Assembly (NCBI RefSeq): GCF_021764745.1
Contig: NZ_JAETXX010000002.1
Location: 124,001 to 188,000, forward strand
DNA from: Joostella atrarenae
GTDB taxonomy: Bacteria > Bacteroidota > Bacteroidia > Flavobacteriales > Flavobacteriaceae
Reading direction: 5' to 3'
Length of the DNA stretch: 64,000 nucleotides
Of this stretch, positions 24,928 through 32,294 are shown one piece after another. A program made the translations under genes and the position numbers. The notes beneath the pieces are model-generated. The model worked only from the letters and a program-made list of their open reading frames with translations. It was not told the DNA's origin and ran no database searches. How positions within the stretch are numbered: position 1 is the first letter of the stretch; each line of letters opens with the position of its first letter.

Positions 24928-24935
24928 TAATATTG
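24928..24935 (+). promoter_or_regulatory. Weak candidate -7 box for the ilv leader transcript
   Basis: TAATATTG differs from TAnnTTTG at one base. It lies just before the leader peptide start, so transcription from it would begin very close to the ATG at 24941. No clear TTG element is present at the expected distance. The divergent spacing to the dehydrogenase start (24883) leaves little other room for a promoter. Confidence 0.25.
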
Positions 24936-24940
24936 TAGTA

Positions 24941-25003
24941 ATGAAAACGCAAATAATTAATATCATTTCTATTCTAGTCGCTGTGATTATTTCACGGGGA
25001 TAG
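24941..25003 (+). CDS. ilvL: Isoleucine-rich leader peptide of the ilv operon attenuator
   Basis: The 20-codon frame encodes MKTQIINIISILVAVIISRG and then TAG. Seven of the 20 codons are Ile, with two Val and one Leu, so half are branched-chain amino acids, which are the products of the operon 320 bases downstream. The stop codon touches a GGAAGG segment (25003-25008) that can pair with the left arm of the following terminator. The architecture is that of the classical enterobacterial ilv leader peptides, although this sequence is unrelated to them. The symbol is used by analogy. Confidence 0.8.
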   Translation: MKTQIINIISILVAVIISRG

Positions 25004-25058
25004 GAAGGAGTGTATATTATATCAATATAGCAAGCCTTCCTTTTTGGAAGGCTTTTTT
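25003..25058 (+). promoter_or_regulatory. Transcription attenuator of the ilv operon (antiterminator/terminator switch)
   Basis: Terminator: AAGCCTTCC (25032-25040) pairs with GGAAGGCTT (25046-25054) over a 5-base T loop, followed by T to 25058. Antiterminator: GGAAGG (25003-25008) pairs with CCTTCC (25035-25040), supported inside by TATATT (25013-25018) with AATATA (25024-25029). The two structures are mutually exclusive. A ribosome that reaches the leader stop masks GGAAGG and allows termination; one stalled at the Ile codons leaves GGAAGG free and favours read-through. A pause-type hairpin, CTGTGA/TCACGG (24981-24986 with 24992-24997), lies within the leader codons. Confidence 0.8.
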
Positions 25059-25060
25059 AG

Positions 25061-25326
25061 TTTATGGCAATACCTAAAAACTATATTGTTATAGTAAAAT
25101 AGCTAGCTAAGGATTGATTGATAAAGTAAATAAACGCTCTTAAAAAAGGTAAATAAAAGCGTTTGAATGTCCTAAAAATATACATTTAAATAGCTGTATA
25201 TCAGTAATGTAGTTATTTATTAAGGGTGTTGGATTTAAAGTTAAAAAAGAAATGCTTTAAAATTTATAAATACAATAGTATATTTTTGAATAAAATTAGA
25301 TAATACTTTAAAATTTAACATATAAA
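25061..25326 (+). other. Long AT-rich leader between attenuator and ilvD with a possible second promoter
   Basis: The 266 bases contain a 7-bp hairpin AAACGCT/AGCGTTT (25132-25138 with 25158-25164). They also contain TATTTTTG at 25281-25288, an exact -7 match lying 38 bases before the ilvD start. If used, that promoter would bypass the attenuator. No other gene or structured RNA is recognisable here. Confidence 0.35.
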
Positions 25327-27009
25327 GTGAATTTAAAAAAATTTAGTCACCAAGTAACACAAGACCCAACGCTTCCAGCTGCACAAGCTATGTTACACGC
25401 ATTGGGCTTAACAGATGAAGATTTACAAAAACCTTTTATAGGGATTGCAAGTACAGGTTATGAGGGAAACCCTTGTAATATGCATCTTAACGACCTAGCA
25501 AAGCATGTTAAAAAAGGAACTGCTAATGCAGACACGGTAGGATTAATTTTTAATACTATAGGAGTTAGTGATGGTATTTCTAACGGAACACCAGGAATGA
25601 AGTTCTCACTACCTTCTAGAGATATTATTGCAGATTCTATGGAAACTGTAGTAGAGGCTATGAGCTATGATGGTTTGATTACAGTAGTAGGTTGTGATAA
25701 AAATATGCCAGGAGCTTTAATGGCGCAATTGAGGTTAAATAGACCGTCTATTTTAGTGTATGGAGGAACGATTGCTTCTGGATGCCATAATGGAAAAAAA
25801 TTAGATATTATATCTGCATTTGAGGCTTATGGCCAAAAAGTAGCAGGAACTATAGATGAGTCAGAGTACAAAGAAGTGATTCATAAAGCATGTCCTGGAG
25901 CTGGAGCTTGTGGTGGGATGTATACTGCAAACACAATGGCTTCTGCAATAGAAGCTTTAGGGATGTCATTGCCTTTTAACTCTTCAAATCCTGCGATTAG
26001 TAATAATAATCTTAAGGAAGAAGAGTGTGTAAAAGCAGGAGAGGCGCTTCGTTTATTATTAGAAAAAGATATTAAACCTTCTGATATTGTTACTAAAAAA
26101 TCTTTAGAAAATGCCTTTAGATTGGTAACAGTTCTTGGAGGTTCTACGAATGCCGTTCTTCACTTTTTAGCAATTGCTAAAGCTGCTCAGGTAGAATTTA
26201 CTTTAGACGATTTTAAAAAGATAAGCGATAATACTCCATTGCTAGCTGATTTAAAGCCTAGTGGTAAATATTCAATGGAAGATTTGCATGGTGTAGGGGG
26301 AATTCCTGGAGTGCTTAAATATATGTTAGATAACGATATGCTTCATGGAGATTGTCTAACGGTAACAGGTAAAACTATAGCTGAGAATTTAAAAGATGTT
26401 CCAAATTTAATTGCGAATCAAGAGATTGTAAAAACTTTAGACAAGCCTATTAAAGAAACAGGACATATTAGAATATTATTTGGAAATCTAGCTACAGAAG
26501 GTGCTGTTGCTAAAATTACAGGTAAAGAAGGCTTGTCTTTTAGAGGAACTGCAAATGTTTTTGATGGAGAAGATGCTGTAAATGAAGGGATAAAAACTGG
26601 AAAAGTAAAAAAAGGAGATGTCGTCATTATCCGCTACGAAGGGCCAAAAGGTGGACCAGGAATGCCGGAAATGCTAAAACCGACTTCTTCAATTATGGGA
26701 GCTGGTTTAGGTAAAGAAGTAGCATTAATTACAGACGGGCGTTTTTCTGGAGGATCTCATGGTTTCGTAGTGGGACACGTAGCACCGGAAGCACAAGTTG
26801 GAGGTAATATCGCTTTAGTAGAAAACGGAGATATTATTGCAATCGACGCTGTTAATAATACTATTAATATCGAGATTTCTGATGAAGAGCTTGCAAAAAG
26901 AAAAGAAAAATGGAAAGCTCCAGCTTTAAAAGTACAAAGAGGAGCATTATATAAATATGCAAAAACAGTTTCATCAGCTTCAAAAGGTTGTGTAACTGAC
27001 GAGTTTTAG
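25327..27009 (+). CDS. ilvD: Dihydroxy-acid dehydratase
   Basis: The 560-residue iron-sulphur enzyme converts dihydroxyisovalerate and dihydroxymethylvalerate to the 2-oxo acids of valine and isoleucine synthesis. Cluster-binding cysteines are visible in [21 protein letters not shown] and [19 protein letters not shown]. The C-terminal [18 protein letters not shown] is conserved. The start is GTG at 25327, giving an N-terminus ([20 protein letters not shown]) that fits the family. It is the first structural gene after the attenuator. Confidence 0.96.
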
Positions 27010-27113
27010 AAAAAATCCAATACTGTTTTATTATTCAGCAATAAAAAGACTAGAATACTAAAACGTCAATTTGATAATTGCGGACTCGATTCGTAACTAA
27101 TAGATTGTTACTT

Positions 27114-28847
27114 ATGGAAGTAAAGACATTAAGAAAAGAAGAAAGTAAAACCGGAACTAAGATAAGAGTTACGGGAGCAGAAGCAGTAATCCACTGTTTA
27201 CTTGCCGAAGGGGTAGATACACTTTACGGTTATCCGGGAGGAGCTATTATGCCAATTTATGATGAACTTTATAAGTTTAAAGACAAACTTCATCATGTAT
27301 TAACAAGACACGAGCAGGGGGCAACTCACGCTGCTCAAGGTTACGCTAGAGTTTCTGGGAAAGTAGGTGTTGCTATGGCTACATCTGGACCTGGAGCTAC
27401 AAATCTGATTACTGGTATTGCAGATGCTCAGATAGATTCAACCCCAATGGTTTGTATTACTGGGCAAGTAGCACGTCATCTTTTAGGTTCGGATGCATTT
27501 CAAGAAACAGATATTGTTGGTATTTCAACACCAGTAACAAAATGGAATTATCAGATTACAAATGCTTCTGAAATTCCGGAGGTAATGGCAAAAGCTTTTT
27601 ATATAGCTAGATCTGGACGTCCAGGACCTGTGTTAGTTGATATTACTAAAAATGCACAATTTGAGGAGTTTGATTTCGATTATCAAAAATGTACAGCTAT
27701 CCGTAGTTATACTGCAAATCCAACTGTAGAAGCTTCGAAAATAGAAGAGGCTGCAGCTGCTATTAATAATGCTAAAAAACCTATGATTGTATGGGGGCAA
27801 GGTATTATTTTAGGAAAAGCAGAAGCAGAATTAAAAGAATTGGTAGAGAAATCTGGTATTCCTGCTGCTTGGACAATTTTAGGAGCCTCCGCTTTACCAT
27901 CTACGCATCCTTTAAATGTAGGTATGGTTGGTATGCATGGTAATTACGGCCCTAATGTTTTGACTAACGAATGTGATGTTCTTATTGCATTGGGAATGCG
28001 TTTTGATGATCGTGTTACGGGAGATTTATCTACGTATGCTAAACAAGCTAAAGTTCTTCATTTTGAAATAGATCCTGCAGAAATTAATAAAAATGTGCAT
28101 GCAGATGTTCCTGTTTTAGGAGATGTAAAAGAGTCTTTAAAGCAATTGCTGCCACTTATTAAAGAAAATAAGCATGAAGCTTGGCACAATGAGTTTAAAG
28201 AAAAATATAAAGTAGAATTCGATCAAGTAATAAATGGTGACCTTAATCCGACTACGGAAGGAATTACCATGGCAGAAGTTATTGAGCAGATTAATGTTTG
28301 CTCCAATCATGATGCTGTAATAGTTTCAGATGTTGGACAACACCAAATGATAGCTTGTAGATATGCTAAATTCAATAAGTCTAAAAGTAACATTACTTCT
28401 GGAGGATTAGGAACAATGGGATTTGCTCTTCCAGCAGCAATTGGTGCTAAAATGGGAGCTCCAGAGAGAGAAGTTGTTGCTATTATTGGAGATGGAGGTT
28501 ACCAAATGACAATTCAGGAATTGGGTACCATTTTTCAGACACAAGTTCCAGTAAAAATTGTTGTTTTAAATAACGAATTTTTAGGAATGGTACGCCAATG
28601 GCAACAGTTGTTTTTTGACAAACGCTATGCATCCACAGAAATGATAAATCCAAATTTTGTGGCTATTGCTGAAGGATATCATATTCAAGCTAAAAAGGTA
28701 ACTAAGCGAGAAGATTTAGAGGACGCTATTAAAGAGATGATAGCTTCTCCAGACGCATATTTCCTTGAAGTTTGTGTAGAAAAAGAAAATAATGTGTTCC
28801 CGATGATTCCTACAGGAGCTTCGGTTTCAGATATTCGTTTGAGTTAA
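27114..28847 (+). CDS. ilvB: Acetolactate synthase large subunit
   Basis: The 577-residue thiamine diphosphate enzyme has the N-terminal PYR domain with catalytic Glu in TRHEQGATHAAQGYARVSGK, a central FAD-binding domain (GMVGMHGNYGPN), and the C-terminal PP domain with the ThDP motif GDGGYQMTIQELGTI ending in NNEFLGMVRQWQ. It condenses pyruvate, or pyruvate with 2-oxobutyrate, in the first common step. I choose ATG 27114 (MEVKTLRKEES). The frame runs back to a TTG at 27078 that would add 12 poorly family-like residues. The regulatory subunit follows. Confidence 0.96.
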   Translation: MEVKTLRKEESKTGTKIRVTGAEAVIHCLLAEGVDTLYGYPGGAIMPIYDELYKFKDKLHHVLTRHEQGATHAAQGYARVSGKVGVAMATSGPGATNLITGIADAQIDSTPMVCITGQVARHLLGSDAFQETDIVGISTPVTKWNYQITNASEIPEVMAKAFYIARSGRPGPVLVDITKNAQFEEFDFDYQKCTAIRSYTANPTVEASKIEEAAAAINNAKKPMIVWGQGIILGKAEAELKELVEKSGIPAAWTILGASALPSTHPLNVGMVGMHGNYGPNVLTNECDVLIALGMRFDDRVTGDLSTYAKQAKVLHFEIDPAEINKNVHADVPVLGDVKESLKQLLPLIKENKHEAWHNEFKEKYKVEFDQVINGDLNPTTEGITMAEVIEQINVCSNHDAVIVSDVGQHQMIACRYAKFNKSKSNITSGGLGTMGFALPAAIGAKMGAPEREVVAIIGDGGYQMTIQELGTIFQTQVPVKIVVLNNEFLGMVRQWQQLFFDKRYASTEMINPNFVAIAEGYHIQAKKVTKREDLEDAIKEMIASPDAYFLEVCVEKENNVFPMIPTGASVSDIRLS

Positions 28848-28940: not shown

Positions 28941-29465
28941 ATGGAAGAAAATAAATCATATACAATATCGGTTTATTCTGAAGATAATGTGGGTTTATTA
29001 AATAGAATATCAGGAATATTCTTAAAAAGACACATTAATATAGAGAGTTTAAATGTATCTAAATCAGAGATTGACGGAGTATTTAAATTCACAATAGTTA
29101 TTTTTTCTACGGAAGATTGGGCTCGTAAAATTGTAGGACAGATCGAAAAACAGATCGAAGTAATTAAAGCATATTACCATACAGATGATGAGACTATTTT
29201 TCAAGAATCAGCGCTTTTTAAAATAGCATCTAATTTATTATTTGATGAGCGTAAGATTCAGAATATTATAAAAGATAACCATTCAGAAATAGTAACAGTT
29301 TCTCCAGAGTTTTTCGTGATTTCAAAATCAGGAAGACGTGAAGAAATTGAAGTAATGTACGAACAGTTAAAACCATATGGAATTATGCAATTTGTTCGTT
29401 CAGGAAGAATATCAGTATCAAAATCAGAAATGAAAATTTCGAGTCTATTAAAAGACTTCAATTAA
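28941..29465 (+). CDS. ilvN: Acetolactate synthase small (regulatory) subunit
   Basis: The 174-residue protein has an N-terminal ACT domain (YTISVYSEDNVGLLNRISGIF with RRHINIESL-like KRHINIESLNVSKSE). This domain binds valine for feedback inhibition in the family. A C-terminal dimerisation domain ends in MKISSLLKDFN. It activates the large subunit and gives it feedback control. It lies 93 bases after ilvB and 31 bases before ilvC. Confidence 0.94.
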   Translation: MEENKSYTISVYSEDNVGLLNRISGIFLKRHINIESLNVSKSEIDGVFKFTIVIFSTEDWARKIVGQIEKQIEVIKAYYHTDDETIFQESALFKIASNLLFDERKIQNIIKDNHSEIVTVSPEFFVISKSGRREEIEVMYEQLKPYGIMQFVRSGRISVSKSEMKISSLLKDFN

Positions 29466-29496: not shown

Positions 29497-30966
29497 ATGG
29501 CAAATTATTTTAATACACTTTCACTTAGACAGCAATTAGAGCAATTGGGAGTTTGTGAATTTATGGATATTTCAGAATTTAGTGACGGTGTAGAAAAGTT
29601 AAAAGGCAAAAAAGTAGTTATCGTGGGATGCGGTGCGCAGGGTCTTAACCAAGGTCTTAATATGAGAGACTCTGGATTGGATGTTTCTTATGCATTGCGT
29701 GAAGGAGCTATTAAAGAAAAGAGACAGTCGTTTGTAAATGCATCAGAAAATGGATTTACGGTAGGGACATATAAAGAATTAATTCCTACTGCAGATTTAG
29801 TTTGTAATCTTACGCCAGACAAGCAGCATACAGATGTTGTGAGTACGATTATGCCACTTATGAAAAAGGGAGCTACTTTATCTTATTCTCACGGTTTTAA
29901 TATCGTTGAAGAAGGGATGAAAGTTCGTGAAGATATTACAGTTATTATGGTGGCTCCAAAATGTCCTGGTTCTGAAGTTAGAGAAGAATATAAAAGAGGA
30001 TTTGGAGTACCTACACTTATAGCTGTTCACCCAGAGAATGATCCTGAAGGAAAAGGATTAGAGCAAGCTAAGGCTTATGCAGCTGCTACTGGTGGACATA
30101 GAGCTGGAGTTTTACGTTCTTCTTTTGTTGCTGAAGTAAAATCTGACCTTATGGGAGAGCAAACCATTTTATGTGGATTGTTACAAACAGGTTCTATCTT
30201 GAGTTTCGATAAGATGATAGAAAAAGGAATTGATGCTGGATATGCTTCTAAATTAATCCAATACGGATGGGAAACAATTACTGAGGCTCTTAAATATGGT
30301 GGGATCACTAATATGATGGATCGTCTATCAAATCCTGCTAAAGTAGAAGCTTTTAAAATTTCAGAAGAATTAAAAGTAATAATGCGTCCTCTTTTCCAAA
30401 AACATATGGACGATATTATGAGTGGTCACTTTTCTAAAACAATGATGGAAGATTGGGCTAACGACGATAAAAACTTACATACTTGGAGAGCTGCAACTGG
30501 AGAAACTGCTTTTGAGAAAACACCTGCAGGAGATGTCGCTATTTCTGAGCAAGAATACTTTGACAATGCGGTGTTGATGGTAGCATTTGTAAAATCTGGA
30601 GTTGAATTAGCGTTCGAAACGATGACTGAAGCTGGAATTATTGCCGAATCTGCGTATTACGAATCTTTACACGAAACACCGCTTATTGCTAATACAATTG
30701 CAAGAAAGAAATTGTTTGAAATGAATCGTGTTATTTCAGATACAGCAGAATATGGTTGTTACTTATTTGATCATGCTTGTAAGCCTTTATTAAAAGACTT
30801 CATGAAAAATGTAGATACTAATATTATAGGAAAAGCTTTTTCTGATGATAATGGTGTTGATAATAAAGAGCTAATAGAAGTAAACAGTCAGATTCGTAAT
30901 CACCCTGTAGAAGAGGTTGGAGCGTGGCTACGTTCTTCTATGACTGCCATGAAAAAGATTGTTTAA
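29497..30966 (+). CDS. ilvC: Ketol-acid reductoisomerase, class II (long form)
   Basis: The 489-residue enzyme is the long class II form, with a duplicated knotted helical C-terminal domain, as in E. coli and in Bacteroidota (class I forms are about 330 residues). The Rossmann motif is [21 protein letters not shown], and the NADPH-phosphate-binding Arg is in [14 protein letters not shown]. Metal-binding Asp and Glu are in [14 protein letters not shown]. It isomerises and reduces acetolactate. The gap to ilvA (65 bases) contains a bulged hairpin without a T run. Confidence 0.96.
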
Positions 30967-31031: not shown

Positions 31032-32294
31032 ATGCAGACAAAAACAGTTTACATACCAAAATTAGAAGATGTTAGAAAAGCTGCTGCAACCCTAAATGGG
31101 GTTGCAGCAGTTACACCTTTAACCTATAGCTTGCGCTATTCTAAAGAGTTTGAGGCTAATGTTTTACTTAAAAGAGAAGATTTACAGGTAGTTCGTTCGT
31201 ACAAGATTCGTGGTGCTTATAATAAAATAAGTTCGCTTACCGAAGAAGAAAGAGCAAAGGGAATTGTTTGTGCTTCCGCAGGAAATCATTCCCAAGGAGT
31301 TGCATATTCTTGTAAAGAGTTAAAAATTAAAGGTACCATTTATATGCCTTCTCCAACACCAAGGCAGAAGATTGAGCAGGTAAAAATGTTTGGTGAAGAT
31401 TACATAGACATTGTTTTAGAAGGTGATACTTTTGATGATGCCTATAAAGCCGCAATGAAAGAATGTACACGCGTTGGAAAAACTTTTGTTCATCCTTTTG
31501 ATGATGAAAAAGTTATTGAAGGTCAGGCAACTGTTGGATTGGAAATTCTTGAGCAAACTAAAAAGAGAATCGATTATGTGTTTGTTGCCGTTGGTGGTGG
31601 TGGACTAGCTTCTGGTTTAGCGAGTGTTTTTGATGTACTTTCTCCTCAAACTAAAATAATAGGAGTGGAGCCTCAGGGAGCCCCTTCTATGAAAACATCT
31701 TTAAAGAATAAAGAAAATACGGAACTTAAAGAGATAGATAAATTTGTAGACGGCGCAGCAGTACAGCGTGTTGGAGACAGAACATTTGCTATCTGTCAGT
31801 ATCTCTTGGACGAAATGGTAACCGTTCCAGAGGGTAAAGTTTGTCAGGAGATTTTAGATCTTTACAATAAAGATGCAATTGTTGTAGAACCAGCGGGTGC
31901 ATTAACACTATCTGCTTTGGAGCAATATAAAGATAAGCTTAAAGGTAAGAATGTTGTATGTGTGGTAAGTGGTAGTAACAATGATATTACTAGAACTGCG
32001 GAGATAAAAGAACGTGCGTTGCTATATGCTAATCTTAAGCATTATTTTATAATCCGATTCCCGCAGCGTGCAGGAGCTTTAAAAGAGTTTGTTGCTGAAA
32101 TATTAGGGCCATCAGATGATATTACTCATTTTCAGTATACAAAAAAGAATGCTAAAGAAAATGCTCCAGCGGTGGTTGGAATAGAACTAAAATCGGAGGC
32201 CGATTTAGAACCGCTAATTGCACGTATGAAATCTAAAAATTTCTTTGGTGAATACTTAAATAATAAACCTGATCTTTTTCAGTATTTAGTATAA
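31032..32294 (+). CDS. ilvA: Threonine dehydratase (threonine ammonia-lyase)
   Basis: The 420-residue pyridoxal-phosphate enzyme has the cofactor Lys in VRSYKIRGAYNKIS, the substrate loop SAGNHSQGVAYS, and the phosphate-binding glycine loop VGGGGLASG. A single C-terminal ACT-like regulatory domain starts near residue 335 (LKHYFIIRFPQRAGALKEFV), so it is the shorter biosynthetic form rather than the two-ACT E. coli type. It makes 2-oxobutyrate, the isoleucine-specific precursor. Its presence as the last gene fits the isoleucine bias of the leader peptide. Confidence 0.94.
   Translation: MQTKTVYIPKLEDVRKAAATLNGVAAVTPLTYSLRYSKEFEANVLLKREDLQVVRSYKIRGAYNKISSLTEEERAKGIVCASAGNHSQGVAYSCKELKIKGTIYMPSPTPRQKIEQVKMFGEDYIDIVLEGDTFDDAYKAAMKECTRVGKTFVHPFDDEKVIEGQATVGLEILEQTKKRIDYVFVAVGGGGLASGLASVFDVLSPQTKIIGVEPQGAPSMKTSLKNKENTELKEIDKFVDGAAVQRVGDRTFAICQYLLDEMVTVPEGKVCQEILDLYNKDAIVVEPAGALTLSALEQYKDKLKGKNVVCVVSGSNNDITRTAEIKERALLYANLKHYFIIRFPQRAGALKEFVAEILGPSDDITHFQYTKKNAKENAPAVVGIELKSEADLEPLIARMKSKNFFGEYLNNKPDLFQYLV

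Follow-up and report, generated by a model that had tools for sequence, protein, structure and literature searches.

Taken together, the conservation, covariation, footprint folding and gene context described here support the attenuation logic that the initial annotation had proposed for the ilv operon of Joostella atrarenae, and suggest with high confidence that the element ahead of ilvD in the window (the whole 64,000-nt stretch of DNA analysed) is a classical ribosome-mediated transcription attenuator, with a predicted layout of three competing hairpins much like the textbook one. Such an element would very probably switch the ilv genes on when isoleucine or valine runs short, and we infer that the leader is translated, that transcription does terminate and that Ile/Val limitation relieves the termination.

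The leader peptide frame (MKTQIINIISILVAVIISRG) lies on the forward strand at 24941-25003, with its ATG at 24941-24943 and its stop codon TAG at 25001-25003, and inspection of the sequence bears out the reported composition of 20 codons with 7 Ile, 2 Val and 1 Leu. Counting both strands, the whole window has 403 frames that begin with ATG and are 14-30 codons long, and no other reaches 50% Ile+Leu+Val together with 35% Ile. About 270 nt separate the end of the terminator from the operon's first gene, ilvD (25327-27009), which is followed on the same forward strand by ilvB (27078-28847), ilvN (28941-29465), ilvC (29497-30966) and ilvA (31032-32294); NCBIfam confirmed all five identities, and with them the ilvDBNCA genes that had been called downstream. 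Between module and ilvD (window 25160-25330) we also observed stretches conserved in 7 genus members, TTGAATGTCCTAA and ATAATACT..AAAATTTAACA, which are possibly a second promoter or another signal.

At the 3' end of the module, the 9-bp terminator with a T tract noted earlier is present at 25032-25058 (3:4; forward strand, arms 25032-25040 and 25046-25054, T run 25053-25058); it is conserved, and its stem folds at -14.9 kcal/mol (25030-25056). The antiterminator (2:3, 25002-25041) had been described as GGAAGG at 25003-25008 pairing with CCTTCC at 25035-25040, and this pairing is found within a longer predicted helix of 7 bp (25002-25008 with 25035-25041), whereas the inner helix, although present, is predicted to have 8 bp with one bulge (25011-25018 with 25024-25032) and not the 6 bp first assigned to it. 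Folding of 25000-25045 gives the antiterminator -14.7 kcal/mol, almost the same energy as the terminator, and in type A modules, to which that of the window belongs, it overlaps terminator strand 3, so that the two are mutually exclusive. In the minimum-energy fold strand 2 is also paired with leader codons, forming a predicted 1:2 hairpin at 24958-25019 whose core covaries, and the stretch 24930-25065 as a whole folds with a z of -5.6, none of 200 shuffles being equally stable. A terminator and an antiterminator alone do not name their sensor, and a ligand, a T-box or a protein might in principle control the switch with the short frame being incidental. We consider this extremely unlikely, as the conserved upstream part is an Ile/Val-coding frame whose codons vary with the operon, and no Rfam family (T-box, riboswitches and known amino-acid leaders included) matched the window at gathering scores, nor did any match the module's own locus at E 0.1.

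Relatives carry two types of module, A (that of the window) and B, which occur alone or in tandem with up to three in series and A distal. We collected them from 80 loci (the best 80 of 586 ilvD relatives) and from 7 genomes of the genus, one of which shows no difference from the Galbibacter mesophilus record L018 over 4677 bases, placing the window in, or very close to, that GTDB genus; by the rule used 4 of 128 modules have no ATG leader, and 116 distinct ones were analysed for promoter box, switching, codons and pairing. Left out of the first module set and its pairing test were modules lacking an ATG, L076, which is unlike the rest, and L086, a duplicate of L018. When the regions upstream of ilvD were aligned, a check that the initial annotation had proposed, Ile-rich short frames proved to be conserved. 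The RNAalifold consensus of 25 aligned type A modules contains 8 pairs of a 1:2 core and 5 pairs of the terminator, and compensatory changes occur in 12 of these 13 pairs, including 8/8 in the 1:2 core, with single consensus pairs broken in at most 9 of the 25 modules; as the collecting script required a terminator, the terminator pairs are partly selected, and the 1:2 pairs are free of that selection. For 2:3 in type A, strand 2 matches the terminator arm of the same module more closely than the arms of other modules: with 25 modules, four of which score 0 because strand 2 sits inside a longer leader, beyond the stretch used, an equally good fit came up in just 2 of 20000 permutations, and in the larger set of 63 in 0 of 20000. 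The co-change of GGAAGG and CCTTCC expected in relatives is thus seen in type A but not in type B, where the 2:3 strands hardly vary and two permutation tests gave covariation no support (2140 and 19632 of 20000 reach the observed value).

These data also bear on the idea, put forward with the first description of the site, of a simpler layout than the 1:2/2:3/3:4 scheme of enterobacteria, one where only 2:3 and 3:4 matter. It agrees with our folding of the window's nascent untranslated RNA, in which 2:3 stands beside a small 1:2 remnant, and with 2:3 still being predicted in the absence of a ribosome in 41/63 type A and 33/53 type B modules, which makes it uncertain what 1:2 does when the leader is untranslated. 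We nevertheless think it very unlikely, given the compensatory changes at every pair of the type A 1:2 core and a 1:2 hairpin of 9 pairs in type B; the covarying 1:2 pairing within the leader codons argues instead for the classical three-hairpin scheme, and the supposed simplification, in which a ribosome that has reached the stop codon masks strand 2, is that scheme's own feature.

In the classical scheme as we apply it here, RNA polymerase would start at or beside the leader AUG, and when charged Ile-tRNA (and Val-tRNA) is in sufficient supply the ribosome would reach the stop codon and cover GGAAGG (strand 2), leaving 3:4 to pair and transcription to end near 25058. When Ile or Val is scarce the ribosome would stall within the leader, opening 1:2 and freeing strand 2, which could then form 2:3 before strand 4 is made, and the polymerase would read on into ilvDBNCA. 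We folded the free RNA for a ribosome at each P-site codon with the footprint edge assumed at 15 nt from the first P-site base, and the window's module was predicted to form 7 bp of 2:3 with P-site codons 1-16, five with codon 17, two with codon 18 and 0 with codons 19-20; every Ile codon, when in the A site, falls in the 7-bp group, and footprint edges of 12-17 nt gave a similar outcome. With strand 4 present at equilibrium, the terminator probability is 0.17-0.41 at P-site codons 11-14 only and 0.72-1.00 elsewhere, and as the terminator is thus favoured for most stall positions the model needs a kinetic choice in which 2:3 forms first. Folding with the assumed footprint and this kinetic order agrees with ribosome position deciding the structure. 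Counting as switching modules those with at least 5 bp of 2:3 when stalled at a control codon and fewer at the stop, we found 59/63 in type A against 36.5% of shuffles and 32/53 in type B against 45.3% (116 distinct modules), so that the modelled case for switching is strong for type A and weak for type B.

The codons of the leaders point in the same direction. Type A leaders contain 34% Ile, 13% Val and 5.6% Leu, compared with 7.3%, 6.9% and 8.7% in long frames (forward open stretches of at least 250 codons in the same loci, uncurated as genes), and type B leaders contain 31% Ile and 13% Val; Leu is below background in the leaders. The isoleucine bias assigned to the operon at the outset fits this Ile-rich composition, but 61/63 type A leaders hold Val as well, and Val therefore probably counts as a control signal too. 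Leader codon content appears to follow the pathway: in three genomes with a free-standing ilvA (L183-L186, L234, L235; ilvA and ilvD identities checked in L183 and L234), the ilvA leader has Ile without Val, whereas both occur in the leader of that genome's ilvD. The share of GTC among Val codons is 0.40 in type A and 0.69 in type B compared with 0.09 in long frames, and the pair GTCATT occurs 95 times in the 116 leaders; because GTCATT is also part of the 1:2 hairpin we claim no slow-codon selection, and either structure or such selection may underlie the GTC excess.

Across the family (299 genomes, ilvD found in 243), the type A model R1 has matches in 120 genomes at E <= 0.01, which include operons besides ilv and so are not ilv-specific, and the model R2 has frequent matches near E 0.01 (204/299 genomes), the weak ones of which we take to be mostly chance. 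Among 150 ilvD genes listed, a strong module lies within 2.5 kb at 84 (one module at 57, two at 27) and none at 66, using 137 R1 matches (E to about 1.4e-3) and 68 R2 matches (E up to 1.9e-6) and leaving weaker ones aside. Those 66 genes, together with a terminator that is stable by itself, are what one might expect of a plain terminator behind a chance hydrophobic frame in which translation plays no regulatory part. Against this, relatives keep leader, 1:2, strand 2 and terminator as a set, and the frame is without equal among the 403 of the window, which makes a plain terminator highly unlikely. The distal module is a type A match in 27/27 pairs, the inner module matching both models in two of them, and the module nearest to ilvD lies 150 to 1134 nt upstream of the gene, with ilvE in between in several long-gap loci (NCBIfam: L169, L247, L231, L232, L233, L248). 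L167 and L168 each have three modules in series with leader frames, and model matches indicate a third such case in L169. At the order level R1 matches 49/296 genomes at E <= 1e-4, 22 of these in a sister family, where 3 of five loci inspected have two leaders in series upstream of ilvE. Within the genus, type A is found in 7/7 genomes and type B in 6/7, all having A+B except the window's genome, which keeps an intact A and, at about 25070-25140 on the forward strand (limits approximate), an apparent decayed relic of the B that is intact in the 6 other members according to the alignment.

In the window a predicted -7 promoter box, TAATATTG (24928-24935, forward strand), has 5/6 fixed positions of TAnnTTTG, a consensus from Flavobacterium psychrophilum where the main -7 box is described in text passages as spanning -12 to -5 (PMC9723704). 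It ends 5 nt upstream of the ATG and would place the transcript start near 24940 with a 5' UTR of 1 nt, and the same box stands at the same distance in 7 genus members. Scoring the -7 box alone (5/6 fixed bases, end 3-12 nt upstream of the ATG), we found it at 55/60 distal type A modules against 16.2 expected from shuffles, at 21/28 type B modules taken as distal (which include inner ones with A further upstream, e.g. L146, L148, L149) against 6.9, with 19 of the 21 at 4-5 nt, and at 1/28 inner modules against 5.0. Most first leaders are therewith predicted to begin within about 9 nt of the RNA 5' end, and an AUG beside the predicted start would tie attenuation to a start mode used by only 5.5% of mRNAs, the share that the passages give as leaderless in the one flavobacterium studied there (PMC9723704).

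A model scan for other amino-acid operons, also suggested at the outset, led to modules beyond ilv, both as R1 matches and as an Asn-rich leader on gatC-gatA. In the window's own genome trpE is preceded by a leader, MRTITNNTWWWSNLRKTS, with a terminator (L241 336-477, contig C4), a member of RF01692 at 81.2 bits (gathering score 49), and hisG by a leader, MTIYTSHHHHFHTCAQAR, and a terminator (L089 1501-1672, contig C12). The same genome has one further chorismate-binding gene, three aspartokinase genes and a leuA-like gene, whose 570.9 bits fall short of the family cut-off; in the stretches upstream of these five the terminator finder found no terminator. In another genome a leader with a Thr run, MKHIITNTTTTTTGTS, followed by a terminator, stands upstream of a thrA-type aspartokinase (L237 253-414). 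Upstream of gatC-gatA in Flavobacterium-like genomes the Asn-rich leader MRNNNNNNNFNNPNF and variants of it were observed in 10/10 loci inspected (L173-L182; in L173 upstream of 592), and these share the GGAAGG/CCTTCC/GGAAGG core with the ilv module. The gene identities were tested for L173 (GatC, PF02686, 25.1 bits with a cut-off of 23; GatA, TIGR00132, 433 bits with a cut-off of 481), and the leader could belong to an attenuator that senses Asn-tRNA. For a second class of R1 matches, a reading as gatA leaders rich in Ile or Gln was rejected, as the frames lie inside gatC and the Asn-rich leader is further upstream. The same core also forms a terminator, with no clear leader frame, at L240 242-427, ahead of a gene resembling pyrR.

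Viewed as a whole, we give an even chance to a more general reading, in which Flavobacteriales control branched-chain synthesis by serial leader-peptide attenuators, an outer A at or near the 5' end and then one or two internally started B, each with Ile/Val codons, in which this core recurs elsewhere with other codons, and in which the window's genome, having lost B, is a naturally occurring variant with a single module. If this is true, termination would multiply along a series of attenuators and the response to a single class of signal would become wider or sharper, in contrast to the single attenuator of other biosynthetic operons, and the leader on gatC-gatA would sense Asn-tRNA, a product of that amidotransferase. 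Tandem and triple versions together with a natural single-module relative in the genus would offer a direct test of what serial attenuators add.

Similar to the module described here, the enterobacterial ilvL system has a leader peptide rich in branched-chain codons, the 1:2/2:3/3:4 alternatives and a terminator upstream of the ilv genes. The leader in the window is however shorter, has Ile/Val instead of Ile/Val/Leu codons and a promoter box that almost touches its AUG, and its relatives have tandem copies; compared through Rfam alone, the window has no match to an ilv leader. Closer in phylogeny is Bacteroid-trp (RF01692), a leader-peptide attenuator of the same phylum that is present before trpE in the window's own genome, but which senses Trp and does not match the ilv module. 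In F. psychrophilum 'strong clues' for leader-peptide attenuation upstream of amino-acid biosynthesis operons have been mentioned, with no operon named in the text passages (PMC9723704). The ilvBNC operon of Corynebacterium glutamicum is similar in having three alternative structures (antiantiterminator, antiterminator and terminator) and in that leaderless mRNA is discussed for it, but it belongs to another phylum, differs in sequence and, as far as that account goes, uses Leu and Val as control codons (PMC11857589). Tandem attenuators in one leader are described, with two short frames, for Salmonella mgtCBR, which its authors call a singular example and where the signals are ATP and proline and the operon is non-biosynthetic according to the passages cited, whereas the flavobacterial serial modules all have Ile/Val codons (PMC3641672). 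Parts of a 2010 survey place such systems previously only in Proteobacteria and Actinobacteria, and add Firmicutes (PMC2965389). The portions of the literature that our search covered describe neither an ilv leader in flavobacteria nor an Asn leader ahead of gatCA, nor amino-acid attenuators placed in tandem before a biosynthetic operon; earlier descriptions are possible. Leader-peptide attenuation in the phylum is thus already known and the ilv element is a new instance of it, and the serial arrays could be new as a form, though the window holds one intact module. Set beside these known systems, it provides a model of ilv control that is backed by covariation and names the bases involved, for a large bacterial group in which regulation has received little study.
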